Source: Mesorhizobium loti
Lineage (GTDB): Bacteria > Pseudomonadota > Alphaproteobacteria > Rhizobiales > Rhizobiaceae
Length of the DNA: 64,000 bases
Reading direction: 5' to 3'
Assembly: GCA_014189435.1 (NCBI GenBank)
Contig: CP050293.1
Location: 873,001 to 937,000 of the forward strand
Position numbers and translations under genes: made by a program. Position 1 is the first letter of the stretch; each line of letters begins with the position of its first letter. The notes beneath the pieces were generated by a model. It was not told where the DNA came from and made no database searches. It worked only from the letters and a program-made list of their open reading frames with translations. Below are positions 8,480-42,115 of the stretch, piece by piece.

Positions 8480-8627
8480 TCAGCGGATCAGGAGCCTGCC
8501 GGTGAGAAATCGCGTGGCCGGCTGGCGATCTTGCTCAACATAACCGCTCCGCAGCCAACCGAGGGGCGAAACAATGCATTTCGGGCACGCCGCCTGGATG
8601 CGCCAACAGGGGAAATGGAGAGAATTA

Positions 8628-9749: not shown

Positions 9750-9868
9750 AGGCGAACCAGATTGACGCCGAGGCCGGCCTTGTGGCGGCCTCGGCGTCAC
9801 CGCCGATTGTCTGGCGCGCCGACGCTGCGCCCAGGCAAGACTTTTTCAATTCTGCCCCCGGAGCATCA

Positions 9869-11739: not shown

Positions 11740-11741
11740 CC

Positions 11742-13234: not shown

Positions 13235-13276
13235 GGTCCGGTCTCTTCTTCAGAGGCTACTTTTGGGCGACATGCA

Positions 13277-14227: not shown

Positions 14228-14240
14228 AGCAAAACGCTAT
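14226..14240. promoter_or_regulatory. LysR-type dyad (T-N11-A) overlapping regulator start
   Basis: The perfect inverted repeat ATAGC-AAAAC-GCTAT fits the T-N11-A pattern of LysR boxes. It overlaps the start codon of the - strand LysR gene and lies about 80 bases upstream of the divergent dioxygenase start. Autorepression together with activation of the divergent operon is the usual arrangement; here it is inferred from position only. Confidence 0.5.
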
Positions 14241-14320
14241 ACAAGGGACGTCACATCTCATCAAGCACCGCGTCGGGCCGTGCTATTCCGCTTGGCAAGG
14301 GGAAGGGAGGCCCCGGCGGA

Positions 14321-15226
14321 ATGCACGGCCAGCACGACCCGAAGCGGGATGAATTCCCCAAGGCGATATCGACGCAGGCCGAGGAATTCTCGCGGCGCCT
14401 GACAGCAATGGGCCAGTCCCGCCTGGCGGCGGCGGCGCAGGCTGCGGTGGATGGTTTGCACGCGCTGATCGTGGAGTTGCGACCCTCCGGCGAGGAATTC
14501 CGCCAGGCGATCGATTTTTTGACCGAGGTTGGCCACTACGCCGATGCGCGGCGCCAGGAATGGGTGCTGTTCGCCGATGTCCTGGGCGTGTCTTCGCTGA
14601 TCGAGGATCAGAACAGCCCGCGCCCCGCCGGGGCGACACCAAACACCCTGGCTGGGCCCTTCTACCGGGCCGATGTGCCGGAGATGGTGCCCGGCGCGAA
14701 CATCTCGCGCGATCACAAGGGCGAGCCGCTGGAGGTTGCCGGCCGCATCGTCACGCTCGACGGCGCTGGGATCGGCGATGCGACGGTCGAGATCTGGCAG
14801 GCCAATGCCGAGGGTCTCTACGAGAACCAGGAACCCGACAGGCAGCCGGAATTCAATCTGCGCGGACGCTTCCGTACCGATCCGCAGGGGCGGTTCCACT
14901 TCGCGACGGTGAAGCCGAAGGGCTACACGCTGCCTTCGGACGGACCGGTCGGTCAATTGATGTCAGCGCTTGGCCTCGGCCTTGAGCGGCCGGCCCATAT
15001 CCATTTTCGCGTCTCGGCGGAGGGCTTCGAGACGCTGACGACCCACATCTTCGACCGGTCGGACCCTGCGATCGGCCGGGATGCCATCTTCGGGGTCAAA
15101 CCCGAACTCATGGCCGAGTTCCGCGCGCTGCCGCCCAATGGAGGAAAACGCAAGCACGCGCTCGACCTCAACCTCGTGCTCTGCCCGCAGCGGCGCAGCG
15201 ATACCGAAACCTCTGGGAGGAGATGA
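14321..15226 (+). CDS. Intradiol ring-cleavage dioxygenase (catechol/hydroxyquinol 1,2-dioxygenase family)
   Basis: The start at ATG 14321 follows AAGGGAGG and GGCGGA; the longer frame runs through the divergent LysR gene. The 301-residue protein uses Fe(III) to open a catecholic ring between the hydroxyls. The non-heme iron ligands are visible: Tyr167 (AEGLY), Tyr202 (KGYTLPSDG), His226 and His228 (RPAHIHF). The N-terminal helical dimerisation domain spans roughly residues 1-105 and is followed by NTLAGPFYRADVPE. With maleylacetate reductase three genes downstream, hydroxyquinol is the likeliest substrate, though catechol or a substituted catechol is possible. It is the first gene of the catabolic operon. 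Confidence 0.9.
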   Translation: MHGQHDPKRDEFPKAISTQAEEFSRRLTAMGQSRLAAAAQAAVDGLHALIVELRPSGEEFRQAIDFLTEVGHYADARRQEWVLFADVLGVSSLIEDQNSPRPAGATPNTLAGPFYRADVPEMVPGANISRDHKGEPLEVAGRIVTLDGAGIGDATVEIWQANAEGLYENQEPDRQPEFNLRGRFRTDPQGRFHFATVKPKGYTLPSDGPVGQLMSALGLGLERPAHIHFRVSAEGFETLTTHIFDRSDPAIGRDAIFGVKPELMAEFRALPPNGGKRKHALDLNLVLCPQRRSDTETSGRR

Positions 15227-15229
15227 CCG

Positions 15230-16189
15230 ATGGCACGTATCAGCGGCTACCACCATTTGACGCTCTCAACCGACAGCGCTCAGGAAGACTTTGATTTCTA
15301 CACCAAGGCACTCGGCCTGCATTCGGTGAAGCGCACCGTCTTGTTCGACGGCGTCATTCCTGTCTATCACCTCTACTACGGCTCGCCCAATGGCGATGCC
15401 TCGACGATCATCACCACCTTCCCGTTCCGCAAGCCAGGCGTCTATGGCCGCCGTGGGTCCAACCAGTCGCGCACCATCATGCAGTCGATCCCCAAGGGGG
15501 CCGCGGATTTCTGGGTGGACCGGTTGAACGCGCGCGGCATCGAGGCCATCAAGATCACCCGTTTTGGCGCCGACCGTGCGGCTTTCGCACATCCCTGCGG
15601 CATCTCGCATGAGCTGGTGGAAAGCGACAGGGATCCACGTACGCCCATCACCAACGAGGCGCAGGGCATCGGCAAGGCGCACGGCATCAAGGGAATCTAC
15701 GGCGCCGTGGTGGCGGTGATGGACCGCACCGCCATGGACGACTTCCTGACCATCGCATTGCCGATGGAGAAAGAGGCCGACGACCACGAGGGGCTCGTGT
15801 TCCGCGTGCCCGACGCGACCGGCGTGGCACAGCGCGTGGAGGTCATTGTCGACCGCGACAGCCCGCAGGGCACCTGGACGCTGGCGGGCGGCACGATCCA
15901 CCACCTCGCCCTCAACACCGGTGACGAAGAGAACCAGTTGAAACTGCGCGCTCATATCGAGGGCCTCGGCTTCACGGACATATCGGAGCAGAAGGACCGC
16001 AACTACTTCAAGTCCTGCTATGTCCGTTCGCCCGGCGGCGCGCTGTTCGAAATTGCCTGGACCACGCCGGAAGGCTGGGCCAAGGACGAGCCTCCGGGCC
16101 AGATCGGCAAGACGCTGGTCTTCCCGCCGTGGTTCAAGGACCGTGAGAGCGAATTGCAGGCCGGCCTGGAAGAGGCGGATTTCGCGTGA
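15230..16189 (+). CDS. VOC-family ring-cleaving dioxygenase (MhqO/LinE-like)
   Basis: This 319-residue two-domain vicinal-oxygen-chelate protein is of the size of MhqO/MhqA-type hydroquinone or methylhydroquinone dioxygenases. The metal-binding pattern is visible as His in SGYHHLTLS near residue 9, His in GGTIHHLALN in the second domain, and Glu in GGALFEIAW near residue 277. The family uses a divalent metal to open hydroquinones or catechols extradiol. It starts three bases after the intradiol dioxygenase stop (GGGAGGAG upstream) and overlaps the next gene. An mhqD-like hydrolase follows, the same pairing as in Bacillus mhq operons. Confidence 0.88.
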   Translation: MARISGYHHLTLSTDSAQEDFDFYTKALGLHSVKRTVLFDGVIPVYHLYYGSPNGDASTIITTFPFRKPGVYGRRGSNQSRTIMQSIPKGAADFWVDRLNARGIEAIKITRFGADRAAFAHPCGISHELVESDRDPRTPITNEAQGIGKAHGIKGIYGAVVAVMDRTAMDDFLTIALPMEKEADDHEGLVFRVPDATGVAQRVEVIVDRDSPQGTWTLAGGTIHHLALNTGDEENQLKLRAHIEGLGFTDISEQKDRNYFKSCYVRSPGGALFEIAWTTPEGWAKDEPPGQIGKTLVFPPWFKDRESELQAGLEEADFA

Positions 16190-16845
16190 GTTCAGGCAGC
16201 GGTCCGCTCAGGCTTGGGCCAAGAGGCCCGGAGGCGAAGGCGATTTGCGTCTTCGTCCACGGCCGCGGCCAATCGCCCGAAGAGATGCAGTCCCATGTGC
16301 TGTCGCGACTTTCGGCGTCCGCCGTGGCCTTCATCCTGCCGCGCGCACCGCACGGCATGTGGTGGGAGGCGCGCGCCGTCGACCCGTTGACGCCGGTCGC
16401 CCGGGCGCAGCTTTCCGACGCGCTCGATCATCTTGCGGCCGCCGTGGTGGCGGCGCGGGCGGAACTGCCCGGACTGCCGCTGCTTCTCGCGGGTTTCTCG
16501 CAAGGGGCGTGTCTCTCGATCGAATATCTCTGCGCTGGGCTGCCGCCGCCGGACGCTTTGGTGGCCTTCACGGGCTGCCGTGTCGGTGTACCGGCGGACG
16601 ACAGATCAGAGGCCGCGCCGGCCGGAATGCCGATCTATCTTTCCGGCGGCGATGCCGATCCCTGGATTCCGGTCTCGGCGTTTGCCGATGCCGCGCAATC
16701 GCTGGGGCGGATTGGCGCGAGCCTGCGGGCCGATCTGTTCCCGGGCCGCGGCCATGAGGTCTCGGACGCCGAGATTGCCATGCTGGGCACAATCCTCGAC
16801 GACCTCGCGGCCGGACGTGGCCCGCGCATGGAGGCGGCGCGATGA
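16186..16845 (+). CDS. Carboxylesterase/phospholipase family hydrolase (MhqD-like)
   Basis: The start is GTG 16186, overlapping the preceding stop (GTGA). The 219-residue alpha/beta-hydrolase has the oxyanion region FVHGRGQSPEEM, nucleophile Ser105 in GFSQGA, the acid Asp in GGDADPWIP and His in GRGHEVS. This group is typically co-transcribed with VOC hydroquinone dioxygenases and is thought to hydrolyse ring-cleavage or quinone-derived products. No signal peptide is seen, so it is cytoplasmic. It overlaps the maleylacetate reductase gene by four bases. Confidence 0.88.
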   Translation: MSSGSGPLRLGPRGPEAKAICVFVHGRGQSPEEMQSHVLSRLSASAVAFILPRAPHGMWWEARAVDPLTPVARAQLSDALDHLAAAVVAARAELPGLPLLLAGFSQGACLSIEYLCAGLPPPDALVAFTGCRVGVPADDRSEAAPAGMPIYLSGGDADPWIPVSAFADAAQSLGRIGASLRADLFPGRGHEVSDAEIAMLGTILDDLAAGRGPRMEAAR

Positions 16846-17906
16846 TGGACAGCTTCATCTTTCCGGGCCTGACGACACGGGTGGTCTTCGGTGCCGGCAC
16901 CATGGCTCGCGTCGAGGAGGAAGTCCGGCGGCTCGGCCATGACAAGGTGATGGTGCTGTCGACACCGCACCAGAAGGGCGATGCGGAAAGACTGGCCGCA
17001 AGCCTTGGCGGCCTCGCTGCCGGGATCTTTGCCGGCGCGGTCATGCATACCCCTGTCGAGGTTACGGAACAGGCCGTCGATGCCTTCCGCACCAGCGGCG
17101 CTTCGGCGGTCGTCAGCCTCGGCGGCGGCTCGACCACCGGGTTGGGCAAGGCCATTGCCGTGCGCACCGGCGCCGACCAAGTGGTCATTCCCACAACCTA
17201 TGCCGGCTCGGAAATGACCGACATTCTTGGCGAGACGGCGGCTGGTGAAAAGACCACGCGCCGCTCGCCGGACATCCGCCCCGAGACGGTGATCTACGAC
17301 GTCGATCTGACACTGAGCCTGCCGGTAAGTCTCACCGTCACCTCGGCGATGAACGCGATCGCCCATGCGATGGAGGCTTTCTATGCCCCCGATCGCAATC
17401 CGGTGATCGTGCTGATGTGCAGGGATGCCATGGTTGCCTTCCGGGACGGCATTCCAAGGCTGATCGGCGATCCGCAGGATCGCGCGGCGCGGACGCAGGC
17501 GCTCTATGCGGCGTGGTGCTGCTCGACCGCGCTCGGCTATGTCTCGATGGCGCTGCATCACAAGCTGGCGCATGTCTTCGGCGGCTCGTTCGACACGCCG
17601 CATGCCGAAACCCACGCCATCCTGCTGCCGTACACGACCGCCTTCAACGAAGTGGCGGTGCCCGATCTGCTGCGCCCGATCACCGAGGCATTCGGTGGTG
17701 GCTCGGCGGGCGGTGGGCTCTGGGATTTCGCGCAGTCGGTCGGCTCTCCGCTGAGCCTGAAGGCGATCGGCATCAAGGAGGCCGATCTCGACCGCGCGGC
17801 GGCCATCGCGGTCAAGAATGCCTATGCGAATCCGAGGCCAATCGATCCGGGATCCATCAGGGAACTCCTTCAGGCGGCGTGGGAGGGACGCCGTCCGGGG
17901 GCTTGA
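16842..17906 (+). CDS. Maleylacetate reductase
   Basis: This 354-residue protein of the iron-containing alcohol dehydrogenase superfamily is the length of MacA, ClcE and TftE. It reduces maleylacetate to 3-oxoadipate with NAD(P)H, the step after ortho cleavage of hydroxyquinol or chlorocatechols. Diagnostic segments are FGAGTM, SLGGGSTTGLGKAIA, IPTTYAGSEMTDILGET, NAIAHAMEAFYAPD and HHKLAHVFGGSFDTPHAETH. It completes a four-gene cassette with the intradiol dioxygenase, VOC dioxygenase and hydrolase, and is followed 27 bases later by the transporter-A binding protein. Confidence 0.94.
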   Translation: MMDSFIFPGLTTRVVFGAGTMARVEEEVRRLGHDKVMVLSTPHQKGDAERLAASLGGLAAGIFAGAVMHTPVEVTEQAVDAFRTSGASAVVSLGGGSTTGLGKAIAVRTGADQVVIPTTYAGSEMTDILGETAAGEKTTRRSPDIRPETVIYDVDLTLSLPVSLTVTSAMNAIAHAMEAFYAPDRNPVIVLMCRDAMVAFRDGIPRLIGDPQDRAARTQALYAAWCCSTALGYVSMALHHKLAHVFGGSFDTPHAETHAILLPYTTAFNEVAVPDLLRPITEAFGGGSAGGGLWDFAQSVGSPLSLKAIGIKEADLDRAAAIAVKNAYANPRPIDPGSIRELLQAAWEGRRPGA

Positions 17907-17933
17907 GAATAAAACAGGAGGGAGGAACTACAC

Positions 17934-19208
17934 ATGATCACAAGACGCAGCCTACTGAAAGCCTCGGCGGCGACGGGCCTGGCGCTCGCCGGGTCGCGCC
18001 TGGCGACGCCGGCCATCGCGCAAGGCGCCAAGATCCGCCTGGGCTATGTCTCGCCGCAGACGGGGCCGCTCGCCGGCTTCGCGGAGAGCGATGACTACAA
18101 CATCAGGGCCTTCCTCGCTTCCGAGGCGGGCAAGAACTTCGAGGTCATCGTCAAGGACAGCCAGTCGAACCCCAATCGCGCGGCGGAGGTGGCCAAGAGC
18201 CTGATCGTCGATGACGAGATCAACCTGATGCTCGTCGGCTCGACGCCCGAGAACACCAATCCGGTGGCCACCACCTGCGAGGCGGAGGGCGTGCCGGTCA
18301 TCTCGACGATGGCGCCATGGCAGCCCTGGTTTATCGGCCAGCAGGGCAATCCGGCCGATCCCTCCTCGTGGAAGCCTTTCAACTTCGCCTATCATTATTT
18401 CTGGGGTCTCGAAGACATCATCGCCGTCTACACTGGCATGTGGAAGCAGCTTTCCACCAACGGTAAGGTGGGCGGGCTGTTCCCGAACGATGCCGACGGC
18501 AACGCCTGGGGCGACCCGAAGAACGGGTTGAAGCCGGGTCTCGATGCCGCCGGTTTCAGCCTTGCCGATCCCGGTCGCTACCAGAACCTCTCGGACGATT
18601 TCACCGCGCAGGTCAACGCCTTCAAGGCGGCCAATGCCGAGATCGTCACCGGTGTGGTCATTCCGCCCGACTTCACCACCTTCTGGAACCAGGCCCGCCA
18701 GCAGGGTTTCAAACCCAAGGCGGTGACCGTGGCCAAGGCGATCCTCTTCCCGCAATCGGTCGAGACGCTCGGCGACGCAGGCCACAACCTCTCGTCCGAG
18801 GTCTGGTGGTCGGCCTCGCATCCGTTCAAATCGTCCGTGACGGGCGAGAGCTCGGCGGAACTCGCGGCGGATTTCACCGCCAAGACCGGGCGTCCCTGGA
18901 CGCAGCCGATCGGTTTTGTCCATTCGCTGTTCGAGGTGGCGGCCAATGTCATGGGCCGCGTTTCGGATCCGACCAATGCCGAGGCGATCGCGGCGGCCAT
19001 AGCCGCCACCGACATGACGACCGTGGTCGGCAAGGTGGCCTGGAGCGGTGCGGGACTGCCGCCTTTCGCCGCGAAGAACGTCTGCAAGACGCCGCTCGTT
19101 GGCGGGCAGTGGCGCAAGAAGGCCGGCGGCGGCTTCGATCTGGTGATCGTCGAAAACGCCGGCGCCTCCGAGATACCCACCGCCGGCAAGATGGAAGCCC
19201 TGGCCTGA
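17934..19208 (+). CDS. ABC transporter substrate-binding protein, transporter set A (Tat-type signal)
   Basis: GGAGGGAGGAA precedes ATG 17934. The 424-residue precursor starts with a twin-arginine-like signal, MITRRSLLKASAATGLALA, ending at TPAIAQ. The mature protein (IRLGYVSPQTGPLAGFAESD) is a type 1 periplasmic binding protein of the Liv class, larger than LivK. It follows maleylacetate reductase directly and precedes its own G-F-H-M genes, so it likely binds an aromatic acid or phenol-derived solute. A hairpin follows its stop, suggesting that it is made in excess over the membrane parts. Confidence 0.92.
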   Translation: MITRRSLLKASAATGLALAGSRLATPAIAQGAKIRLGYVSPQTGPLAGFAESDDYNIRAFLASEAGKNFEVIVKDSQSNPNRAAEVAKSLIVDDEINLMLVGSTPENTNPVATTCEAEGVPVISTMAPWQPWFIGQQGNPADPSSWKPFNFAYHYFWGLEDIIAVYTGMWKQLSTNGKVGGLFPNDADGNAWGDPKNGLKPGLDAAGFSLADPGRYQNLSDDFTAQVNAFKAANAEIVTGVVIPPDFTTFWNQARQQGFKPKAVTVAKAILFPQSVETLGDAGHNLSSEVWWSASHPFKSSVTGESSAELAADFTAKTGRPWTQPIGFVHSLFEVAANVMGRVSDPTNAEAIAAAIAATDMTTVVGKVAWSGAGLPPFAAKNVCKTPLVGGQWRKKAGGGFDLVIVENAGASEIPTAGKMEALA

Positions 19209-19214
19209 CGCTGC

Positions 19215-19241
19215 CGAGGGCGGCTGATGCCGCCGCCCTCG
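19215..19241 (+). terminator. Intercistronic hairpin after set A binding-protein gene
   Basis: The arms CGAGGGCGG (19215-19223) and CCGCCCTCG (19233-19241) pair perfectly around a 9-base loop. No T-run follows, so partial termination or mRNA 3'-end protection is more likely than a full stop. A similar hairpin follows the Aap binding-protein gene. Confidence 0.55.
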
Positions 19242-19255
19242 TTCGGCGCAACCCA

Positions 19256-19297
19256 AGGATGGTAGCCCCAGGATGGTAGCCCAAGAATGGTAGCAAT
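19256..19297 (+). repeat. Three 14-base tandem repeats spanning a livG start
   Basis: The units AGGATGGTAGCCCC, AGGATGGTAGCCCA and AGAATGGTAGCAAT follow head to tail. Each carries an ATG, and the third provides ATG 19287 of the ATPase gene. The second contributes the only Shine-Dalgarno-like AGGA, 13 bases upstream. Copy-number change here would alter translation initiation. Confidence 0.75.
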
Positions 19298-20012
19298 GAT
19301 GCTCAGGCTGGAAAGCGTCTCGAAGTCGTTCGGCGCGCTGAAGGTTACGGATGGCGTAACCGTCACGGTTCCGCGCGGCGAGGCGTTGGGCATCATCGGT
19401 CCGAACGGGGCCGGAAAATCGACGCTCTTCAACCTGATTACTGGCAACCTCTTTGCAAATGAGGGTCGCATCGAATTTCTTGGCTGCGACGTGACCCGCG
19501 CACCGGCTATGGAGCGGGTGCGCATGGGTGTCGGCCGCAGCTTCCAGATTCCGCAGCCTTTCGAGGGGCTGACCGTGTTCGAAAATCTCTTGACCGCCGC
19601 CGCCTTCGGTCGCGGCGGACGCGAGGCCGAGATGGTCGACGATTGCGCGCGCATCCTCGATGAGACGGAGCTTCTCAGAAAGGCCAATTTCGTGGCCGGC
19701 TCGCTGAGCCTTCTCGATCGCAAGCGCCTGGAACTCGCCCGCGCCCTGGCGACGGGCCCCGAGCTTCTGCTTCTGGACGAGATCGCCGGCGGTCTGACGG
19801 AGGGCGAATGCAAGGCCCTGGTCGCGACGATCAGAGCCATCCACGCGAGGGGAACCACCATCATCTGGATCGAGCATGTGCTGCATGCCCTCACGTCAGT
19901 GGTCGAGCGGCTTCTGGTGCTGGATTTCGGGCGCGTGATCGGGATCGGTACGCCCGATGAGATCATGGCCTCGAAGGCGGTTCGCGAAATCTATCTGGGG
20001 CTCGAGGTCTAA
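19287..20012 (+). CDS. LivG-type ATP-binding protein, transporter set A
   Basis: The 241-residue ATPase has Walker A GPNGAGKSTL, the LivG-type VGRSFQIPQPFEGLTVFEN, and Walker B LLLLDEIAGGL with His in IIWIEHVLH. The ABC signature region reads SLSLLDRKRLELARAL, a variant of LSGGQ where the glycines are lost; set B has the same variant. The ATG at 19287 is used here, but 19296 and 19299 are also possible because none has a strong ribosome site. Its stop codon shares one base with the next start. Confidence 0.91.
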   Translation: MVAMMLRLESVSKSFGALKVTDGVTVTVPRGEALGIIGPNGAGKSTLFNLITGNLFANEGRIEFLGCDVTRAPAMERVRMGVGRSFQIPQPFEGLTVFENLLTAAAFGRGGREAEMVDDCARILDETELLRKANFVAGSLSLLDRKRLELARALATGPELLLLDEIAGGLTEGECKALVATIRAIHARGTTIIWIEHVLHALTSVVERLLVLDFGRVIGIGTPDEIMASKAVREIYLGLEV

Positions 20013-20713
20013 TGCTGGAAACGCACGGCCTCACCGCTAATTACGGCCAGTTCCGGGCGCTGTTCGGTGTGGATATCACCGTGGCCGCGGGTGAATGCGT
20101 GGCGATCATCGGCGCCAACGGCGCCGGGAAATCCACGCTGATGCGCTCGATCACGGGCGTGATCGGCAACGAGCCCGGCATGGTGCTGCACAGGGGCGAG
20201 CCGATCGGCGCGCTGTCTTCGGCCGAGATCATGAAGCGCGGCATCGCCATGGTGCCGGAAGGGCGCCGGCTGTTCCCTTCGCTGACCGTCGAGGAAAATC
20301 TGCTGGTCGGCGGGCAGGCGCGCAAGGTGCCGGGGCCGTGGAGCCTCGACGCGGTCTATGACCTTTTCCCGATCCTGCGCGAGCGGCGCAAGAGCCCGGG
20401 CACAGCGCTCTCTGGCGGCCAGCAGCAGATGGTGGCGATCGGCCGGGCGCTGATGTCGAACCCCGAATTGCTGCTTTGCGACGAGATCAGCCTCGGCCTG
20501 GCGCCCGTCGTCATCCGCGATATCTACGCAGCCCTTCCCAGGGTCCGCGAAGGCGGCGCCGCGATCGTGCTGGTGGAGCAGGATATCGGCAAGGCGCTGG
20601 CGGTGGCCGATCGCGTCTACTGCATGATGGAGGGCCGCGTCACGCTGGCCGCCAGGGCGGCCGAGGTCACGCGCAACGAAATCCATTCTGCCTATTTCGG
20701 AGTGGCGGCATGA
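20012..20713 (+). CDS. LivF-type ATP-binding protein, transporter set A
   Basis: This 233-residue ATPase has Walker A GANGAGKSTLM, MVPEGRRLFPSLTVEENL, the normal signature LSGGQQQMVAIGRALM and Walker B LLLCDEISLGL. It begins on the last base of the preceding stop codon (TAATG). The cysteine in the Walker B strand also occurs in the set B homologue, supporting common descent of the two transporters. Confidence 0.93.
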   Translation: MLETHGLTANYGQFRALFGVDITVAAGECVAIIGANGAGKSTLMRSITGVIGNEPGMVLHRGEPIGALSSAEIMKRGIAMVPEGRRLFPSLTVEENLLVGGQARKVPGPWSLDAVYDLFPILRERRKSPGTALSGGQQQMVAIGRALMSNPELLLCDEISLGLAPVVIRDIYAALPRVREGGAAIVLVEQDIGKALAVADRVYCMMEGRVTLAARAAEVTRNEIHSAYFGVAA

Positions 20714-20780
20714 CGAGGCAACCGAGGCTCCGTCATTTGCTCGCGCAGCGCTCTTGTGGCCTGATCGAGGTGGCGCGGCG

Positions 20781-21644: not shown

Positions 21645-21653
21645 GGGGGCGGC

Positions 21654-24457: not shown

Positions 24458-24467
24458 GGAGGATCTT

Positions 24468-26176: not shown

Positions 26177-26194
26177 ACAAGCTTTGAACTGACA

Positions 26195-26220
26195 CCGGTC
26201 CCGTCGAGGGGACGGGCCGG
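26195..26220 (+). terminator. Hairpin between SDR and set B binding-protein gene
   Basis: CCGG-T-CCCGTC (26195-26205) pairs with GACGGG-CCGG (26211-26220) around the loop GAGGG, with one bulged T. No T-run follows. It separates the first catabolic transcript from transporter set B and may act as a leaky terminator. Confidence 0.5.
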
Positions 26221-26243
26221 CTTAACCAAGGGAGGAAATGACC

Positions 26244-27548: not shown

Positions 27549-27549
27549 C

Positions 27550-28302
27550 ATGAGCGGGGACGCGGGCGGAGTTATGGATAGAGAAATCCTGCTGAAGGCG
27601 CGCGGCGTGTCGAAGTCCTTCGGCGCCGTCCGCGTCCTGCATGAGGTGAGTTTCGACGTTCATCGGGGCGAGGTGCTGGGCATCCTCGGCCCGAACGGGG
27701 CGGGCAAGACGACGCTGTTCAACATGATCAGCGGCGACTTGAAGGCGTCCGGCGGCGAGATCCAGCTCGGCGACACGGCGCTCCGCGGCGAGCCGCCCTT
27801 CCGGCGCTGCCAGATGGGGATCGGGCGGACCTATCAGATCCCGCGTCCCTATTCCGGCATGACCACCTTCGAAAACCTGCTGGTCGCCGCCGCTTTCGGC
27901 GGCGGCCGGTCCGAGAATAAGAGCTATGCTTTCTGCGCCCAGGTCCTGCGCGATTGCGAGCTCTCCGACAAAGCCAATGTCTCGGCCGGCGCTCTGACGC
28001 TGCTCGACCGCAAACGGCTGGAACTGGCGCGCGCGCTGGCGTCGGATCCGAAGTTGCTGCTGCTGGACGAGATCGCCGGCGGGCTGACCGACGATGAATC
28101 GAAGGCGCTGGTGGCGCTGGTGCGTCGCATCCGCGACCGCGGCATCACCATCGTGTGGATCGAGCATGTGCTGCACGCGCTGCTGGCGGTGGCCGACCGG
28201 CTGTTGGTGCTGAACTTCGGCGAGAAGATCGCCGAAGGCGTGCCCGCCGAAGTGATCGCGCTGCCCGAGGTCCAGCGCGTCTACATGGGGATCGAGGTAT
28301 GA
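27550..28302 (+). CDS. LivG-type ATP-binding protein, transporter set B
   Basis: The 250-residue ATPase has Walker A GPNGAGKTTL, IGRTYQIPRPYSGMTTFEN, Walker B LLLLDEIAGGLTD and IVWIEHVLHALL. As in set A, the signature site reads ALTLLDRKRLELARAL rather than LSGGQ. ATG 27550 begins one base after the preceding stop; ATG 27574 is an alternative that would shorten the N-terminus by eight residues. It overlaps the next gene (ATGA). Confidence 0.91.
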   Translation: MSGDAGGVMDREILLKARGVSKSFGAVRVLHEVSFDVHRGEVLGILGPNGAGKTTLFNMISGDLKASGGEIQLGDTALRGEPPFRRCQMGIGRTYQIPRPYSGMTTFENLLVAAAFGGGRSENKSYAFCAQVLRDCELSDKANVSAGALTLLDRKRLELARALASDPKLLLLDEIAGGLTDDESKALVALVRRIRDRGITIVWIEHVLHALLAVADRLLVLNFGEKIAEGVPAEVIALPEVQRVYMGIEV

Positions 28303-29027
28303 CGGCCGTTCTTTCCACCCACGGGCTCCTGGCCCGCTATGGCGACTTCCAGGCGCTCTATGGCGTCGACATCGAACTGCATCAGGGTGAGGCCGTGGCT
28401 CTGATCGGCGCCAACGGGGCCGGAAAATCCACCCTCCTGCGCTCGATCATGGGCCTGCTCCCTGTGGCGCGCGAGATGGTGCTGCTGCACGGCGAGCCCG
28501 TCGGCGGCACCGCCACCGACCGCATGGTCCAGAAGGGCGTCGCCATCGTGCCGGAGGGCCGCCGCCTGTTCACCGGCATGTCGGTCGAAGACAATCTTCG
28601 CGTCGCCATCGACCAGGCCGCGCGCATGGGCGCCAAGGGCGGATGGACGCTGCCGCGTTTGCATCAGCTGTTCCCGATCCTCAAGGAGAAGGCCCGCACG
28701 CAGGTGCAGAGTCTCTCGGGCGGGCAGCAACAGATGGTGGCGATCGGCCGCGCGCTGCTGTGCCAGCCGCGCGTGCTGCTCTGCGACGAGATCAGCCTCG
28801 GTCTTGCGCCCAAGGTGATCCGCGAGATCTACGCCGCCTTGCCCGAAATCCGCGCCACCGGAACGGCGATGATCGTGGTCGAACAGGATGTCGGCCTCGC
28901 CCGGACCGCCACGGACCGCCTCTACTGCATGCTGGAGGGGCGCGTGACCCTGACCGGCAGGTCCGCCGAAATCACGCGCGAACAGATCGGCAAAGCCTAT
29001 TTTGGAGCGGGCCATGGAGTGGTTTGA
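28299..29027 (+). CDS. LivF-type ATP-binding protein, transporter set B
   Basis: The start at ATG 28299 overlaps the preceding stop. The 242-residue ATPase has Walker A GANGAGKSTLL, IVPEGRRLFTGMSVEDNL, LSGGQQQMVAIGRALL and Walker B VLLCDEISLGLAPK. Like its set A paralogue it has Cys in the Walker B strand. Its 3' end overlaps the following permease gene by 14 bases. Confidence 0.93.
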   Translation: MTAVLSTHGLLARYGDFQALYGVDIELHQGEAVALIGANGAGKSTLLRSIMGLLPVAREMVLLHGEPVGGTATDRMVQKGVAIVPEGRRLFTGMSVEDNLRVAIDQAARMGAKGGWTLPRLHQLFPILKEKARTQVQSLSGGQQQMVAIGRALLCQPRVLLCDEISLGLAPKVIREIYAALPEIRATGTAMIVVEQDVGLARTATDRLYCMLEGRVTLTGRSAEITREQIGKAYFGAGHGVV

Positions 29028-29877
29028 CGCCTTGGTGCAGGGGATCCTGCTGGGCGGCATGTATGCCCAGTATGCGCTCGGCATGGCGCTCATGTTCGGC
29101 GTCATGCGGATCGTCAACATCAGCCATGGCGATCTGGTGATCCTCTTGTCGCTGATCGGCATCTCGATCGCCACGGCCTGGGGGCTGGGACCCTTGCCTG
29201 TGCTGATCGTATTGGTGCCGCTTGCGGTGCTGATGGGCTGGGTGCTGCAGAAGGCCGTGCTGAACCGCGTGGTCGGAAGCGATCCGCTGCCCTCGCTGAT
29301 CGCCACCTTCGGACTGTCGATCGCGCTGCAGAACCTGATGCTCCAGATTTGGTCCGCGAACAGCCGGTCGTTGCCCGGCCACGGGATCGAGAGCCAGTCC
29401 ATCGAGATCGGCGGTATCTATATCGGCCTCCTGCCGCTGATCGTGCTGGCAGTCGCCACGGGTCTGACATGGGGCCTCGACCTGACGCTGAAGCGCACGC
29501 GCTTCGGCCGGGCGCTGCGCGCCGCGTCGGCCGATGTCGAAGCGGCGGCGATGACCGGCATCAACCCACGCGCCGTCTATGCGATGGCGACAGCGGCGGC
29601 GGTCGGCATCCTCGGCTTTGCAGCGGTCTTCCAGGCGTTGCGGTCGACCGTTGCGCCGGCCGATGGACCTGCCCAGCTGATCTACGCGTTCGAAGCGGTG
29701 ATCATCGGCGGCATGGGGACGGTATGGGGCGCCTTCGCCGGCTCGATGGTGCTCGGCATCTCGCAAGCCATCGGCTTCCGCATCGATCCGGGCTTCGGCG
29801 TGCTTGCTGGACATATCGTCTTCCTGATCGTGCTGGCGACCCGTCCTCAGGGCCTGTTTGGAAAGGCATTGTCATGA
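29014..29877 (+). CDS. LivH-type permease, transporter set B
   Basis: ATG 29014 has GGAG seven bases upstream, within the end of the ATPase gene; a TTG at 29002 is a less likely start. The 287-residue protein, the same length as its set A paralogue, opens WFDALVQGILLGGMYAQYA and has NISHGDLVILLSLIG and AVIIGGMGTVWGAFAGS. It overlaps the LivM-type gene by four bases. Confidence 0.93.
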   Translation: MEWFDALVQGILLGGMYAQYALGMALMFGVMRIVNISHGDLVILLSLIGISIATAWGLGPLPVLIVLVPLAVLMGWVLQKAVLNRVVGSDPLPSLIATFGLSIALQNLMLQIWSANSRSLPGHGIESQSIEIGGIYIGLLPLIVLAVATGLTWGLDLTLKRTRFGRALRAASADVEAAAMTGINPRAVYAMATAAAVGILGFAAVFQALRSTVAPADGPAQLIYAFEAVIIGGMGTVWGAFAGSMVLGISQAIGFRIDPGFGVLAGHIVFLIVLATRPQGLFGKALS

Positions 29878-30899
29878 GTGCGATCCCCTATACGGCAACC
29901 GAGGTGCCCGAGGTCCTGGTCCAGCGCCAGACCCGGTCCGGTCGCATCGCGATGACGCTGGCGGTGCTGGCGATGATCGGTGTCGCTGCCATGCCGTGGT
30001 GGGCCTCGACCGGCACGATCCGGTCGGTTCTGGTGCTTTGCTGCTATATCGCCGTCGCGCAGATGTGGAACCTGCTCGCCGGCTATGCTGGCCTTGTCTC
30101 GGTGGGCCAGCACGCCTTCATGGGCGCGGCCGGCTATGCGCTTTTCGTGCTGGCGCAGACTTACGGGGTCAATCCGTTTGTGGCGGTCTTCCTGTCGCTC
30201 CTGGTGCCGGCCGCGCTGGCTGTGCCGATCTACCTGCTGCTTCATCGCCTGGACGGCCCTTATTTTTCGATCGGCACATGGGTGGTGGCCGAGGTCTTCC
30301 GGCTGACCGCCTCGAACCTGCCGCTCGTCAATTCCGGCGCCGGCATGTCGCTGCGCGTGATGAAGGACTATTCGGCCTTCGAGCGGAATGTCGCGATGTC
30401 GCTGCTTTGCGCGGGGATGCTGCTCGTCACGCTGGGCGGCAGCTACTGGCTGCTCCGCTCGCGCTTCGGCCTTGCGCTGATCGCCATGCGCGACAATCCG
30501 GTGGCGGCTGCCAGCCAGGGCGTGAATGTCGTGAAGCTGCGCTTCCTGATCTATGTCGCGTCGGCGGTCGGCTGCGGCCTTGCGGGCGCGATCTATTTCA
30601 TGGCGCAGCTGCGCATCACCCCGGGTTCGGCCTTTGATCCGATGTGGGCGAACGTCGCGATCTTCATCGTCATGGTCGGCGGGATCGGGTCCATCGAGGG
30701 CGTTCTGATCGGATCGCTGATCTTCTTCGTCGCGGACCGGTGGTTCGGCGAATACGGCGCGACCTATTTCGTCGTGCTCGGCCTGATGACGCTCCTCGTC
30801 GCGCTCTACGCCCGCACCGGCATCTGGGGCCTGATCTCGAAACGATGGGATGCGCCGTGGTTCCCGATACGGCGCAAGCTCGTCGATCCGAAGCATTGA
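29874..30899 (+). CDS. LivM-type permease, transporter set B
   Basis: The start at ATG 29874 overlaps the preceding stop (ATGA). The 341-residue membrane protein has VAQMWNLLAGYAGLVSVGQ, PYFSIGTWVVAEVFRLTAS, SRFGLALIAMRDNPVAAASQ and MVGGIGSIEGVLIGSLIFF. It ends transporter set B; a dehydrogenase gene begins 13 bases later with AGGGAGGA as ribosome site. Confidence 0.93.
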   Translation: MSAIPYTATEVPEVLVQRQTRSGRIAMTLAVLAMIGVAAMPWWASTGTIRSVLVLCCYIAVAQMWNLLAGYAGLVSVGQHAFMGAAGYALFVLAQTYGVNPFVAVFLSLLVPAALAVPIYLLLHRLDGPYFSIGTWVVAEVFRLTASNLPLVNSGAGMSLRVMKDYSAFERNVAMSLLCAGMLLVTLGGSYWLLRSRFGLALIAMRDNPVAAASQGVNVVKLRFLIYVASAVGCGLAGAIYFMAQLRITPGSAFDPMWANVAIFIVMVGGIGSIEGVLIGSLIFFVADRWFGEYGATYFVVLGLMTLLVALYARTGIWGLISKRWDAPWFPIRRKLVDPKH

Positions 30900-30912
30900 A
30901 AGGGAGGATTTC

Positions 30913-31929
30913 ATGAAAGCGGCCATCTTCGATACGGTCGGCAGCCCGCTGCGGATCGGCATGGTGCCGGATCCGACGCCGGCACCCGACGAGGTCGTCT
31001 TGCGTGTCGCCGCCTGCGGCATCTGTGGCAGCGACCTTCACATCACCGAGGATCCGGTGCCCTTCGGCATCGGAAGCGGCTTCGTCCTTGGCCACGAATT
31101 CGCAGGCGACATCGTCGCGGTCGGGTCGGAGGCAACGGGCCTTCGGATCGGCGACCGCGTGGCTGTCGTGCCGATGCGCGGCTGTGGACACTGCGAGGCC
31201 TGCGGGCGAGGCGATCCGGGGCGCTGTCGCGAGATGGAGCTGATCGGCGGCGGCTATGCGCAATACGCGACCGTCGCCGCACGCCAGTGCCATATCCTGC
31301 CCGACGACGTGGCGCTCGAGGATGGTGCGTTGGCCGAACCGCTCTCGGTCGCGCTGCATTGCATCATCCGCTCGGGCATGAAGCCGGGAGACCGGATCGC
31401 CATCCTTGGCGCCGGACCGATCGGCCTGCTCGTCGCCTTCTGGGCCCGGCGGATGGGGGCGTCGCGCGTGGTCGTCGCCGACATTCACGGCCATCAGCGC
31501 GAGCGAGCGCTTGCTCTCGGTGCGACCGACGTCGCGCTTTCCGACGAAAGGCTGGCGGAGAATCTCGCCGACCTTTGCGGCGGGGCGCCCGATATCGTCT
31601 TCGAATGCGTCGGCAAGCGCGGCCTCATTGATGCGGCGGTCAAGGCCGTCCGGCCGCAGGGCACGGTGGTCGGCGTTGGCCTGTGCATCGGCGGCGACCA
31701 ATGGGACCCGTTCGTTGCGCTGATGAAGGAAGTGAACCTGCTGTTTTCTGTCTTCTTCCACCAGCGCAACGAATTCGGCGTCGCCCTCGATGCCCTGCGC
31801 GGCGGACCTTTCGCGCCGCAGGCGCTGATCACCGATCGGATCGATCTTCCGCCGGTTCCGCAGATATTCGAGAGCCTTCGCCGCCGCACGACGCAATGCA
31901 AAGTGCTGATCCAGCCGGACCTTGTCTGA
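30913..31929 (+). CDS. Zinc-dependent medium-chain alcohol dehydrogenase
   Basis: The 338-residue MDR enzyme starts at ATG 30913 after AGGGAGGATTTC. Catalytic zinc ligands are in ACGICGSD and GHEFAGD. The structural-zinc cluster has four cysteines in CGHCEACGRGDPGRC, and the Rossmann motif is AILGAGPIGLLVA near residues 160-172. It oxidises or reduces an alcohol/aldehyde with NAD(P). It is co-transcribed with the hydrolase, monooxygenase and transporter B genes, so it probably handles a side chain or ring alcohol of the imported compound. Confidence 0.91.
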   Translation: MKAAIFDTVGSPLRIGMVPDPTPAPDEVVLRVAACGICGSDLHITEDPVPFGIGSGFVLGHEFAGDIVAVGSEATGLRIGDRVAVVPMRGCGHCEACGRGDPGRCREMELIGGGYAQYATVAARQCHILPDDVALEDGALAEPLSVALHCIIRSGMKPGDRIAILGAGPIGLLVAFWARRMGASRVVVADIHGHQRERALALGATDVALSDERLAENLADLCGGAPDIVFECVGKRGLIDAAVKAVRPQGTVVGVGLCIGGDQWDPFVALMKEVNLLFSVFFHQRNEFGVALDALRGGPFAPQALITDRIDLPPVPQIFESLRRRTTQCKVLIQPDLV

Positions 31930-31941
31930 GGAGAAATGAAA

Positions 31942-32730
31942 ATGGCCGTTCAATTCGAAACGCTCGAATACGATGTCGGCGGCACGAAAACGGTGGTGAA
32001 GGCCATCGGCGAGGGCAAGCCCGTGCTGTTCCTGCACGGCGCATCGACGCTTGAAGGCTTCGACTTTGCCGAAGGCCTCGCCGACCGTTTCCGCGTGCTC
32101 TGCCCGAGCCATCCGGGCTTCGGCTTTTCAGGCGCTGCGCCGCATGTGGCCGTGATGTCCGACATGGTTCTGCACTACCTGAACCTGCTCGATATTCTGG
32201 ACCTGCCGGAGAAGCCTCACCTCATCGGCTTTTCCATGGGCGGCTGGATGGCGACCGAACTCGCCGGCCTTGCACGCGAACGCTTCGACAAGGTGGTGCT
32301 GATCGCGCCGGCAGGGCTCAACGATCCCGCGCACCCGGCCACCGATCTAGGCGCGGTCGCACCGCAGGAGCTGCCGGCCTATCTGGCGCATGATGTCTCG
32401 GTGGCGCTGCGTTATTTCCCGGATGGATCGGACCCCGCCTTTGCGGAGGCCTTCGGCGCCGATCGCGCCCGCGAAGGCGAAACGCTCGGCCGGCTGCTGA
32501 CACCATTCGGCATGGGCCATCCGAACCTGCGGCGCTTCCTGGCACGCATCACCAACCAGACGCTGGTCGTCTGGGGCACCAAGGACCGTCTGCTGCCGGC
32601 GAGCCAGGCGCCGCTCTTCGTCGAGGCGCTGCCTAACGCACGGCTGGTCCTGGTCGAGGACGCCGGCCATTTCGTCATGCAGGAAAAACCCGAAACGCTC
32701 AGGAAGATCGGCGACTTCCTCGCCGGCTGA
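31942..32730 (+). CDS. Alpha/beta-fold hydrolase
   Basis: ATG 31942 is preferred over ATG 31936 because GAGGAG lies about eight bases away. The 262-residue protein has the oxyanion region LFLHGASTLEGFD, nucleophile Ser in GFSMGGWM, acid Asp in GTKDRLLP and His in DAGHFV. It resembles meta-cleavage-type C-C hydrolases and esterases; with no signal peptide it is cytoplasmic. A role on an ester or ring-cleavage product of the aromatic pathway is inferred. Confidence 0.88.
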   Translation: MAVQFETLEYDVGGTKTVVKAIGEGKPVLFLHGASTLEGFDFAEGLADRFRVLCPSHPGFGFSGAAPHVAVMSDMVLHYLNLLDILDLPEKPHLIGFSMGGWMATELAGLARERFDKVVLIAPAGLNDPAHPATDLGAVAPQELPAYLAHDVSVALRYFPDGSDPAFAEAFGADRAREGETLGRLLTPFGMGHPNLRRFLARITNQTLVVWGTKDRLLPASQAPLFVEALPNARLVLVEDAGHFVMQEKPETLRKIGDFLAG

Positions 32731-32757
32731 CCGCATTTGAAAAAGGAGGAGAAGACA

Positions 32758-33978
32758 ATGAACAAGCCCATCAAGCACAGCTCGTGGGGGACGACCACCG
32801 ACTACCGCGACCTGCTGAAGAAGATCGCGGAGATCGGGCCGGCCCTGGAAGCCAACGCCACCGCCGACGAAGTGAGCGGCGAACTGACTGCGGCCACGTT
32901 CGAGCTGCTGAAGCCGCTGCGCATGTCGCATATCTTCGCCGCGGAGAGCCTCGGCGGCGCGCAGTTGCGACCCACCCAGGGTCTCGAACTGCTGGAGACG
33001 ATCACCTGGTATTCGGGAGCGGCCGGCTGGGTTTCAATGGTGCATTGCTGCATCGGTGCGATGTCGGCGGCCTTTCTGCCGGACAGCGCGGTCGAGCGGC
33101 TGTTCGCGCCGGGCACCGACAACCGTTTCTCGGGGCAGGGCGCGCCGCTCGGCATGCTGAAGAAGGTCGACGGTGGTTACCGGCTGAACGGCAAGTGGAG
33201 CTATGGCAGCGGCTTCAGCCACGCCACCTATAGCCACAGTGCCGCCTTCGTCGACGACGGCACCGGCAAGCCCGCCAAGGACGACAAGGGCAATTTGATT
33301 ATCATGTGCGCCCATGCCCCGATCTCCCAGCACAAGCAGCTCGGCAATTGGGACGTCCTGGGCCTCGGCGGCACCGGCAGCATCGACTATGCGGCCGAGG
33401 ATGTCTTCATCGCCGACGATCTCGTCTTCCCGATCCTGACCGCACCGCCGCTGCGCCAGAAGGAGTTCTTCAGTCTCGGGGTCGTTGGCCTCGCTGCCAT
33501 CGGCCATACCGGCTGGGCGCTCGGCACCGGGCGGCGGATGCTGGACGAGATCGCCAAGTTCGCCCGCTCGAAGTCAGGCCGCGCCGGACTGATCGGCGAA
33601 AGCGAGAAGTTCTGGCACGACTATGGCCGCGCCGAAGCCCGCTATCGCGCTGCCCGCGCCTTTGTCTTCGAAGTCTGGCGCGACATCGAGGCGACAGTCG
33701 AAGCCGGCAACAGCGTATCGACGCGGCAGATCAGCCTTGTCCATCTGGCCAAGTCCGAGATTCACGAGGTTGGCGTCGATATCTGCAATTTCGCCTATCG
33801 CGCCGGCGGCGGCGCGTCGCTGCGCGCCGGTGCGATCCAGCGCACCTTCCGCGAGATGATGGTGGCGGCCAACCACTTCACGATTGCGCCGTCGATCGTC
33901 ACCTCGGCCGGCCGCGACATCGGCGGCCTGTGGAGCGACCGCACCTGGCAGTTCTACGACCTGATCGAGAAGAAGTAG
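32758..33978 (+). CDS. Acyl-CoA-dehydrogenase-fold flavin monooxygenase, oxygenase component (HsaA/HpaH-like group D)
   Basis: The start at ATG 32758 has AAGGAGGAG upstream; a TTG at 32737 would include the ribosome site. The 406-residue protein has the acyl-CoA dehydrogenase-like fold of flavin-dependent phenol hydroxylases: N-terminal helices, YRLNGKWSYGSGFSHATY beta-domain motif, GTGSIDYAAEDVF, and the C-terminal helical domain ending SDRTWQFYDLIEKK. Such enzymes take reduced FMN/FAD from a separate reductase and hydroxylate a phenolic ring. A flavin reductase gene follows, after a strong terminator-like hairpin. This is the second aromatic hydroxylase type in the locus. Confidence 0.86.
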   Translation: MNKPIKHSSWGTTTDYRDLLKKIAEIGPALEANATADEVSGELTAATFELLKPLRMSHIFAAESLGGAQLRPTQGLELLETITWYSGAAGWVSMVHCCIGAMSAAFLPDSAVERLFAPGTDNRFSGQGAPLGMLKKVDGGYRLNGKWSYGSGFSHATYSHSAAFVDDGTGKPAKDDKGNLIIMCAHAPISQHKQLGNWDVLGLGGTGSIDYAAEDVFIADDLVFPILTAPPLRQKEFFSLGVVGLAAIGHTGWALGTGRRMLDEIAKFARSKSGRAGLIGESEKFWHDYGRAEARYRAARAFVFEVWRDIEATVEAGNSVSTRQISLVHLAKSEIHEVGVDICNFAYRAGGGASLRAGAIQRTFREMMVAANHFTIAPSIVTSAGRDIGGLWSDRTWQFYDLIEKK

Positions 33979-33982
33979 TCGC

Positions 33983-34020
33983 GAGGGCCGGACAGCGGAC
34001 GCCGTCCGGCCCCTCCTTTT
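33983..34020 (+). terminator. Strong Rho-independent-type hairpin
   Basis: The arms GGGCCGGAC (33985-33993) and GTCCGGCCC (34004-34012) pair perfectly around a 10-base loop, extended by flanking GA/TC, and are followed by CTCCTTTTTA. It lies between the oxygenase and the flavin reductase genes, so the reductase is probably expressed at a lower level by read-through. Confidence 0.8.
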
Positions 34021-34043
34021 TATGCTGCAGAAGAGAGATGTCG

Positions 34044-34592
34044 ATGAGCTTCCCGCATCCGATGACCAACGCCTTCCGCGAAGCCTTTCGCCACCACCCG
34101 GCCGGTGTGGCCGTGATCACGGCCGATCCCGGCGACAGACCGGTGGCGATGACCGTGTCTTCGCTGATCTCGGTAAGTGCCGCGCCGCCGGTCGTCGCCT
34201 TCTCGCTATCGATGAAATCGACCTCGTCCGAGCCCTTGCTGCGAGCCGAGACCATGGTGATCCACCTGCTGCGCTTCACCGATATCGACCTGGCGCAACT
34301 CTGCGCCTCGAGTGGCGCAGAACGCTTCCCGCCAGGGGGCGCCTGGGCGCGTCTGCCCACGGGCGAGCCGCGCTATACCGGCGTTTCGACCTGGTTCCGC
34401 GCCCGCCGGCTCGGCGTCCTGCCGATCGAGGGCGCTACGCTGGTCGCGGCCGAGCTTCTGGACGGCGAAGTGCAGCCGGACGAGGTCCCTCCGGAGGCGC
34501 ATTCGCTGGTCTATCTCGACCGTCGCTGGCATCGCCTGCACAAGGAACTGGACGGCGTGGCCGAGCTTCTCGAGTCGTCGCGTTTTCTCTAG
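34044..34592 (+). CDS. Flavin reductase (FMN-binding split-barrel) for the two-component monooxygenase
   Basis: ATG 34044 is preferred over ATG 34038 because AGAGAG is directly adjacent to the latter. The 182-residue protein has the flavin-reductase opening FREAFRHHPAGVAVITADPG, AMTVSSLISVSAAPPVVAFS and the C-terminal SLVYLDRRWHRL. It supplies reduced flavin to the upstream oxygenase. It is the last + strand gene of the aromatic locus and faces a convergent epimerase gene. Confidence 0.89.
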   Translation: MSFPHPMTNAFREAFRHHPAGVAVITADPGDRPVAMTVSSLISVSAAPPVVAFSLSMKSTSSEPLLRAETMVIHLLRFTDIDLAQLCASSGAERFPPGGAWARLPTGEPRYTGVSTWFRARRLGVLPIEGATLVAAELLDGEVQPDEVPPEAHSLVYLDRRWHRLHKELDGVAELLESSRFL

Positions 34593-35454: not shown

Positions 35455-35457
35455 GGT

Positions 35458-42036: not shown

Positions 42037-42115
42037 GCTTCGACATCCTTCATTCAGGCGGCAAGCCAACCGAGCCTGCCCTTCGGGTTCATACGTGCAC
42101 GCTGCCGGATCGAGA

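Follow-up and report, generated by a model that had tools for sequence, protein, structure and literature searches.

What would a bacterium degrade with two intradiol dioxygenases, a third ring-cleaving dioxygenase of the VOC family and two dissimilar hydroxylases encoded side by side? The question is raised by positions 14321–34592 of a 64,000-nucleotide stretch of Mesorhizobium loti contig CP050293.1 (hereafter the window), part of a Mesorhizobium genome of 8.33 Mb in 3 contigs. We propose, with moderate confidence, that this locus is a LysR-controlled operon that imports phenols and funnels two catabolic branches to maleylacetate and 3-oxoadipate. The gene families, their order, their conservation and their modular recurrence are read from sequence, and every reaction assigned to them below is inferred from these.

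The open reading frames of the window place 21 genes, all with intact frames, on the plus strand at 14321–34592, with gaps of less than 80 bases between them and several overlapping gene ends. Their order is an intradiol dioxygenase (intraA), the VOC dioxygenase, a small alpha/beta hydrolase (est), a maleylacetate reductase (MAR), the five genes of an ATP-binding cassette (ABC) importer (ABC1), a single-component hydroxylase of the TfdB/HbpA kind, a second intradiol dioxygenase (intraB), a short-chain dehydrogenase (SDR), the five genes of a second importer (ABC2), a zinc-dependent medium-chain alcohol dehydrogenase (ADH), a second alpha/beta hydrolase (abH), an HsaA-type oxygenase and a flavin reductase (FR). 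The initial annotation of this DNA had named the enzymes (TfdB-like and HsaA-like hydroxylases, two intradiol enzymes, a VOC dioxygenase, MAR and accessory hydrolases and dehydrogenases), and each of these is indeed encoded intact on a single strand, but it had not mentioned two complete ABC importers, which make up 10 of the 21 genes.

Enzymes and importers of the locus

The two intradiol dioxygenases, intraA (14321–15226) and intraB (24468–25358), are 48% identical across 254 residues and match the Pfam model Dioxygenase_C with 136.5 and 153.9 bits, respectively. Both keep the aligned Tyr, Tyr, His and His positions that we take to be the iron ligands, as the initial annotation had stated. 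A PDB sequence search returned 8r2x, 3n9t and 1tmx, 6-chlorohydroxyquinol and hydroxyquinol dioxygenases, as the best solved relatives of intraB, which also keeps the YPIP-DGPVG and LLSD stretches of hydroxyquinol-type dioxygenases and is an intradiol enzyme of the hydroxyquinol kind with intact iron-ligand positions. The nearest PDB group to intraA is likewise the hydroxyquinol type, at lower scores than for intraB. A catechol pathway was rejected because both proteins fall far below the NCBIfam catechol 1,2-dioxygenase cut-offs (404.4 bits for TIGR02438 and 392 bits for TIGR02439), with 146.9 and 138.5 bits for intraA and 149.7 and 190.5 bits for intraB.

In a maximum-likelihood tree built on 66 intradiol rows (44 intraB and 22 intraA) taken from fetched stretches, one branch with support of 100/100 separates intraA from intraB; each row took the label of whichever window protein scored better, and the agreement of label and branch is thereby partly built in. 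Midpoint rooting would place three Rhizobium intraA rows with intraB, so that intraA may not be one rooted clade. In all 44 intraB rows Leu or Phe precedes the GPF motif, where the 22 intraA rows have Ala (15), Arg (3), Thr (2), Gln (1) or Pro (1), and the YPIP of intraB corresponds to Y-x-[LV]-P in intraA; these columns presumably line the substrate pocket, as in the hydroxyquinol 1,2-dioxygenase 1tmx. The redundancy that the initial annotation saw in the locus is not supported as stated for the two intradiol enzymes: because of the one-branch split, the consistent motif difference and the different gene partners, intraA and intraB look specialised for different substrates. One stop is counted in 6 of the 30 VOC-adjacent intraA matches, which raised the possibility that intraA is broken in some relatives; the three stops that were resolved (L062, L064 and L069) lie at query residue 294–296 of 301, the natural end of the protein.

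The VOC dioxygenase (15230–16189; Pfam) has as its closest solved structure, by sequence search, the 2,6-dichlorohydroquinone dioxygenase 4huz (E = 6.8e-66), followed by MhqO (3oaj, E = 2e-41). Its alignment with LinE keeps a His/His/Glu set that we take to be the metal ligands, and by family and aligned ligand positions it can be classed as a type I hydroquinone dioxygenase of the PcpA/LinE/MhqO kind. LinE, PcpA and the TTNP3 enzyme are the nearest known hydroquinone dioxygenases, and VOC shares its family and aligned catalytic positions with LinE. The TTNP3 enzyme is reported to use 2-methoxyhydroquinone at 59% of its rate with hydroquinone, and LinE appears to split 2-chlorohydroquinone between C1 and C2 (PMC3222310). 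The window VOC differs in being only 35% identical to LinE and in having an esterase and an intradiol dioxygenase, not dehalogenation genes, as neighbours. The esterase neighbour is est (16186–16845), an Abhydrolase_2/carboxylesterase protein by Pfam and NCBIfam.

The single-component flavin-dependent hydroxylase (22703–24457) carries the Pfam domains FAD_binding_3 and aromatic-ring hydroxylase C-terminal and is similar to TfdB and HbpA over its full length. It matches 2-hydroxybiphenyl 3-monooxygenase (HbpA, 4cy6) at residues 4–584 with E = 1.5e-177 and, more weakly, 2,4-dichlorophenol monooxygenase (6u0p, E = 1.7e-138), and the two listed genes annotated tfdB are 55.5% and 53.1% identical to it. 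A protein search scored 8000 candidates; the names among the 120 of 7969 matches listed (FAD-dependent monooxygenase or oxidoreductase, 2,4-dichlorophenol 6-monooxygenase) give no indication of the substrate. The second hydroxylase is an HsaA/HpaH-type flavin-dependent oxygenase (32758–33978, probably starting at ATG 32758; Pfam, NCBIfam and PDB search) followed by FR, its presumed partner (34038–34592, probably starting at ATG 34038; Pfam). An oxygenase of the acyl-CoA dehydrogenase fold with an adjacent flavin reductase, found in all 40 related loci described below, constitutes a two-component flavin monooxygenase of the group D kind, and the same arrangement of oxygenase and separate reductase is seen in the steroid-ring hydroxylase HsaAB and in HpaH C2. 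The window oxygenase nevertheless scores far under both model cut-offs, with 85.8 of 450 bits for the NCBIfam HsaA model NF045629 and 62.3 of 650 bits for the p-hydroxyphenylacetate enzyme model. It is thus of the HsaA/HpaH kind by sequence and well outside the HsaA equivalog, and a steroid pathway was rejected on the low HsaA score.

The identity of MAR (16842–17906) is unambiguous from Pfam and from its match to the maleylacetate reductase 3w5s (E = 3.6e-128), which supports the maleylacetate end of a phenolic catabolic locus as first annotated. SDR (25358–26176; Pfam and NCBIfam) and ADH (30913–31929, with a corrected start; Pfam) belong to broad dehydrogenase families whose best models are of sugar, polyol and fatty-acid type, those of ADH being polyol and sugar dehydrogenases, with none over its cut-off among the rows shown. 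By Pfam and NCBIfam, abH (31936–32730) is distant to esterases and C–C bond hydrolases; its matches to esterases and meta-cleavage-product hydrolases are weak and mixed, which makes it no more than a possible hydrolase of the latter kind.

The two importers (17934–22703 and 26238–30899) are complete, paralogous and of the branched-chain type. ABC1 consists of a substrate-binding protein (SBP1, 17934–19208), ATPases at 19287–20012 and 20012–20713 and permeases at 20754–21644 (starting at TTG 20754 or a later ATG) and 21654–22703, all recognised by Pfam. ABC2 consists of SBP2 (26238–27548; Pfam), ATPases at 27550–28302 (Pfam) and 28299–29027 and permeases at 29014–29877 and 29874–30899; Pfam supports the frames of the second ATPase and first permease, for which starts were chosen, and the second permease, its coordinates corrected, comes from reading of the frame and is matched in 38 of the 40 related loci. 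SBP1 and SBP2 are paralogues with 43% identity, and PDB searches with either gave weak matches only.

Conservation and modular recurrence in relatives

A search of named genomes with the HsaA-type protein found 41 loci, of which one (L053, a 27% match) was dropped to leave 40 at 75–100%; counts given for 35 genomes refer to 35 of these 40 loci, with L017, L019, L025, L039 and L040 outside. The protein is rare, with matches in 7 of 199 genomes of the order (four of at least 84%, this genome included, and three of 35%), and that of M. norvegicum, the nearest named relative, is 100% identical to the window copy. The genes abH, HsaA-type and FR are contiguous in 40 of 40 loci, and the ten-gene run from SDR to FR is in order in 35 of 40, both of which exceed chance. 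An SDR match is absent at four loci, of which L025 and L039 are short contigs and L048 and L049 are full stretches without SDR. Within the 40 stretches the HbpA-type gene was found in 35 and intraB in 36, and a whole-genome search found the HbpA-type gene in 35 of the 35 genomes that have the HsaA-type gene. VOC is present in 33 of 35 genomes and adjoins intraA in 30 of 35, the adjacency being absent from Stappia, Hoeflea, Martelella mediterranea, Lutimaribacter and an uncultured Paracoccus, and est directly follows VOC in 20 of 20 fetched stretches.

The hosts are Rhizobiales (Mesorhizobium, Kaistia, Bosea, Prosthecomicrobium, Hoeflea, Stappia and Martelella) and Rhodobacterales (Paracoccus, Tabrizicola, Gemmobacter and others). 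The order of the blocks differs between hosts, the whole set being kept but reshuffled in the two orders; typical of the Rhodobacterales is LysR / intraA–VOC–est–SBP1–SDR through FR, then the rest of ABC1, intraB, a 110-residue protein and a second LysR / MAR and HbpA-type. Across 146 Mesorhizobium genomes, VOC occurs in 13, the HsaA-type gene in 13, SDR in the same 13 as the HsaA-type gene and the HbpA-type gene in 31, with all four present in 12. The VOC and HsaA-type carriers share 12 of 13 each (hypergeometric p = 1.4e-15, uncorrected for kinship).

Two gene copies among the relatives, the HsaA-type gene of genome G348, one of these 12 (L085 61–1277), and est of genome G289 (L079 5985–6642), match in two frames and look broken there or mis-assembled. 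The 110-residue protein, which has no Pfam match and is absent from the window, lies behind a single intraB in L006 (25607–25939), L009 (23972–24304) and 17 of the 40 loci, in Rhodobacterales, Martelella, Stappia and Hoeflea, and also occurs in P. versutus and A. vitis. From its size and position it may be a small isomerase for the ring-opened product.

Parts of the locus also recur alone, as far as the stretches read in each relative reach. LysR / intraA–MAR–ABC1–HbpA–intraB, here called the hydroxyquinol unit, is found in Rhizobium leguminosarum WSM1325 and in three Mesorhizobium, which were inspected from 17 genomes that have the HbpA-type gene and no VOC or HsaA-type match. Genome G289 has this unit plus VOC–est between intraA and MAR, without the right half of the locus, and a plasmid of Agrobacterium LN-1 carries intraA–VOC–est–MAR–abH–HsaA–FR. 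A single-intradiol form, intraB–MAR–HbpA–ABC1, is found in Paracoccus versutus (60% identical to intraB) and Agrobacterium vitis (57%); in P. versutus the HbpA-type protein (77%), MAR (53%) and the ABC1 genes stand beside annotated pcaF and CoA-transferase genes. Pseudosulfitobacter plasmids carry SDR–ABC2–ADH with an XylR-type regulator and a cupin annotated 2,4'-dihydroxyacetophenone dioxygenase (L010 9436–9951; L058 11436–11951), a neighbour that hints that this module acts on a hydroxyketone side chain. In Cupriavidus basilensis, a hydroxylase 71% identical to that of the window and an intradiol dioxygenase 47% identical to intraB have as neighbours an Amidohydro_2 protein, a CoA ligase, two enoyl-CoA hydratase-family proteins and an aldehyde dehydrogenase, a gene set that would fit entry from a resorcylate through resorcinol. 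Genes added among the 40 loci encode GMC oxidoreductases (12), CoA transferase A (9) and thiolases (7), and the thiolase of the Kaistia cluster passes the pcaF cut-off (683 against 597 bits). Because relatives carry parts alone, we read the locus as modular: a hydroxyquinol unit plus VOC–esterase, plus SDR–ABC–ADH and hydrolase–HsaA–reductase and, in some hosts, plus pcaIJF-type genes.

The putative regulator is a LysR-type gene divergent from the operon (13277–14227, minus strand; Pfam HTH_1 and LysR_substrate), which adjoins intraA at 74–96% identity in 16 of 17 fetched stretches that hold intraA and at 54% in the remaining one. An exact palindrome, ATAGC-N5-GCTAT, lies at 14226–14240 and overlaps the LysR start. 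Of 26 other LysR–intraA spacers, 7 hold it without mismatch at the same place, 7 with one mismatch, 9 with two, 2 with four and 1 with six; these counts come from related rows and from a site that shares two bases with the LysR start codon. In the window alone the palindrome is not beyond chance, as 33 of 100 shuffles match it at one mismatch or fewer. We consider it the probable LysR operator. A simple scan of 13200–32800 found 0 sigma-70-like promoters (2.1 expected) and 11 terminators (10.5 expected), nothing above chance.

The proposed pathway and its alternatives

In the two-branch pathway that we propose, the two related ABC importers would bring phenols into the cell. In branch B, the TfdB/HbpA-type enzyme would hydroxylate a resorcinol-type phenol to hydroxyquinol (benzene-1,2,4-triol), which intraB would open to maleylacetate. 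In branch A, SDR and ADH would oxidise an alcohol or ketone side chain, abH would hydrolyse what results, and the HsaA-type pair of oxygenase and reductase would hydroxylate the ring to a hydroquinone or a substituted hydroxyquinol; VOC may then open the hydroquinone form, with est hydrolysing the resulting ester or acyl product, and intraA may open the substituted hydroxyquinol. One MAR would serve both branches, giving 3-oxoadipate. Resorcinol-type phenols are assigned to branch B because the Cupriavidus neighbours fit a resorcylate-to-resorcinol entry, and the maleylacetate and 3-oxoadipate endpoint is proposed because of MAR and the clusters of relatives.

Several observations weigh against this proposal. 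The split of genes between the branches rests on the partial clusters in relatives, some of which fit imperfectly. The R. leguminosarum and three Mesorhizobium stretches that have intraA and HbpA–intraB contain no match to the window VOC, and genome G343 has the HsaA-type, SDR and HbpA-type genes with no VOC match. In the Cupriavidus stretch MAR is matched only in part (136 of 354 positions, L086 12963–13370), by unannotated sequence after the intradiol gene. Both est and abH resemble general hydrolases weakly, and the AlphaFold models of the binding proteins, with mean pLDDT of 56.6 for SBP2 and 46.9 for SBP1, are too poor for use. No aldehyde dehydrogenase family was found by Pfam among the 21 genes; a plain hydroquinone route would need one, so VOC must use a substituted ring or borrow the enzyme. 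Finally, the host genome has a pcaF over its cut-off (705 bits, C1:6538473), but its best match to TIGR02429 (3-oxoadipate CoA transferase) reaches 61.3 of the required 128.5 bits, with a weak match of 32.7 bits approximately 1 kb before pcaF. Because the CoA transferase is weakly identified, the lower pathway of this host is less certain than that of Kaistia or P. versutus, which carry both genes in the cluster.

The alternative that survives best, which we nonetheless think unlikely, is that a single complex compound, such as an arylglycerol-type lignin fragment or a flavan-3-ol, carries either two different rings or one ring plus a side chain open to oxidation, and is split in the cell so that each ring meets its own hydroxylase and intradiol dioxygenase. 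The whole set stays together, reshuffled, in two bacterial orders, and the intradiol dioxygenases and binding proteins are distinct paralogues, both of which speak for it; side-chain oxidation is suggested by SDR, the polyol-type ADH, the GMC oxidoreductase in 12 of 40 loci and the dihydroxyacetophenone dioxygenase annotation in Pseudosulfitobacter. Each part is nevertheless also found alone in the stretches read, 17 of the 31 Mesorhizobium that carry the HbpA-type gene lack matches to both VOC and the HsaA-type gene, and two separate importers suggest two imported compounds. The initial annotation had offered both one complex substrate and a funnel for several. The funnel gains support from parts that recur alone as plausible pathways in relatives; the single substrate is weakened by these same solitary pieces, and the joint retention of the set in two orders still allows one split substrate or a co-occurring mixture.

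A more specific proposal, for which we hold out little expectation, is that intraA–VOC–est is a demethylase-free route for O-methylated or otherwise substituted hydroquinones and, together with SDR–ABC2–ADH–abH–HsaA, forms a complete pathway for a methoxylated plant phenol bearing a side chain. VOC would cut the ring between the carbons bearing the hydroxyl and methoxy groups so that the methoxy group becomes a methyl ester, est would hydrolyse this ester to methanol and maleylacetate, and intraA, its pocket opened by the small residue, would take the hydroxylated substituted form.

It seems less probable again that VOC–est serves mainly to detoxify quinones and hydroquinones and is not needed for catabolism. 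MhqO and MhqD of Bacillus have such a role, VOC matches MhqO, and VOC–est is unmatched in units that otherwise look complete; the pair is, however, nearer PcpA than MhqO in its dioxygenase and is tied to the rest of the locus by the intraA–VOC adjacency (30 of 35 genomes) and to itself by the constant place of est after VOC (20 of 20). We give smaller credence to a xenobiotic pathway for halogenated or nitro phenols. The best solved relatives are indeed dioxygenases for 2,6-dichlorohydroquinone and 6-chlorohydroxyquinol, tfdB genes are 53–56% identical to the hydroxylase, a 2,6-dichlorophenol enrichment is the source of the Cupriavidus relative and petroleum-contaminated soil that of Martelella AD-3, yet the hydroxylase is more HbpA-like than TfdB-like, Pfam recognised neither a dehalogenase nor a nitroreductase family in the 21 genes, and many carriers are rhizobia and Rhodobacterales, judged by taxon and not by isolation source. 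That the genes up to 25358 (the left part) and those from SDR onward (the right part) are unrelated operons in accidental contact is very improbable, because Rhodobacterales have the same pieces interleaved in a different order and the gaps between the 21 genes are less than 80 bases, even if G289 has the left part without the right and the Pseudosulfitobacter stretch only SDR–ABC2–ADH.

Neighbouring genes, known systems and significance

Upstream of the locus, at 8574–13234 and 7835–8479, lie the genes of another importer of the branched-chain ABC type, the third in the window (binding protein, two permeases and two ATPases), and of an RraA-like protein, a set that ends just before the LysR gene. 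Downstream, a convergent set on the minus strand (34642–42657) encodes an NAD-dependent epimerase, an aminotransferase, hydantoinase B and A subunits and a ThDP-dependent enzyme, and looks like a separate pathway. Elsewhere in the genome, two adjacent intradiol-family genes (C1:4158534–4159711) probably encode protocatechuate 3,4-dioxygenase subunits, a name that we infer.

Gene sets that convert resorcinol through hydroxyquinol to maleylacetate are known from Corynebacterium glutamicum (NCgl1110–1113) and as the rhizobial gra genes. A regulator, a hydroxylase, an intradiol hydroxyquinol dioxygenase and MAR are common to these sets and the window, which in addition has the second intradiol dioxygenase, VOC–esterase, the second hydroxylase system, a hydrolase, SDR, ADH and two ABC importers, and no amidohydrolase among its 21 genes. 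In R. leguminosarum 3841, the neighbouring genes pRL120214–216 and 218 (dioxygenase, maleylacetate reductase, amidohydrolase and flavin reductase) are described as upregulated more than or approximately two-fold in salicylic acid, with p values of 0.13 and 0.14 for the reductases (PMC4136779). As the same system, pRL120214–218 was set aside on that description, since it includes the amidohydrolase (PMC4136779). The p-nitrophenol cluster of Burkholderia SJ98 is an earlier example in which two routes of ring opening lead to the same product, with a hydroquinone dioxygenase of two subunits, a 4-hydroxymuconic semialdehyde dehydrogenase, a benzenetriol (hydroxyquinol) dioxygenase and one maleylacetate reductase (PMC3485097). 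The window differs in its single VOC protein, its two intradiol dioxygenases and its two importers, and a p-nitrophenol layout was rejected because the 21 genes include no aldehyde dehydrogenase.

The initial annotation knew of no described pathway with this layout, and our searches of an open-access library, from which papers of most subscription journals are absent, showed none. None of the enzyme families of the locus is new; what is new is how they are combined and how the modules are distributed. Within the literature searched, the locus is thus an undescribed catabolic supercluster shared by rhizobia and Rhodobacterales, and it is a clear example of how separable modules make up a catabolic operon, with partial forms surviving in relatives. 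Strains that carry the whole set, the left part only or the hydroxyquinol unit only make the substrates of the modules findable by growth tests. If plant phenols are these substrates, the locus would bear on how nodule and rhizosphere bacteria use the phenolics of roots and lignin.

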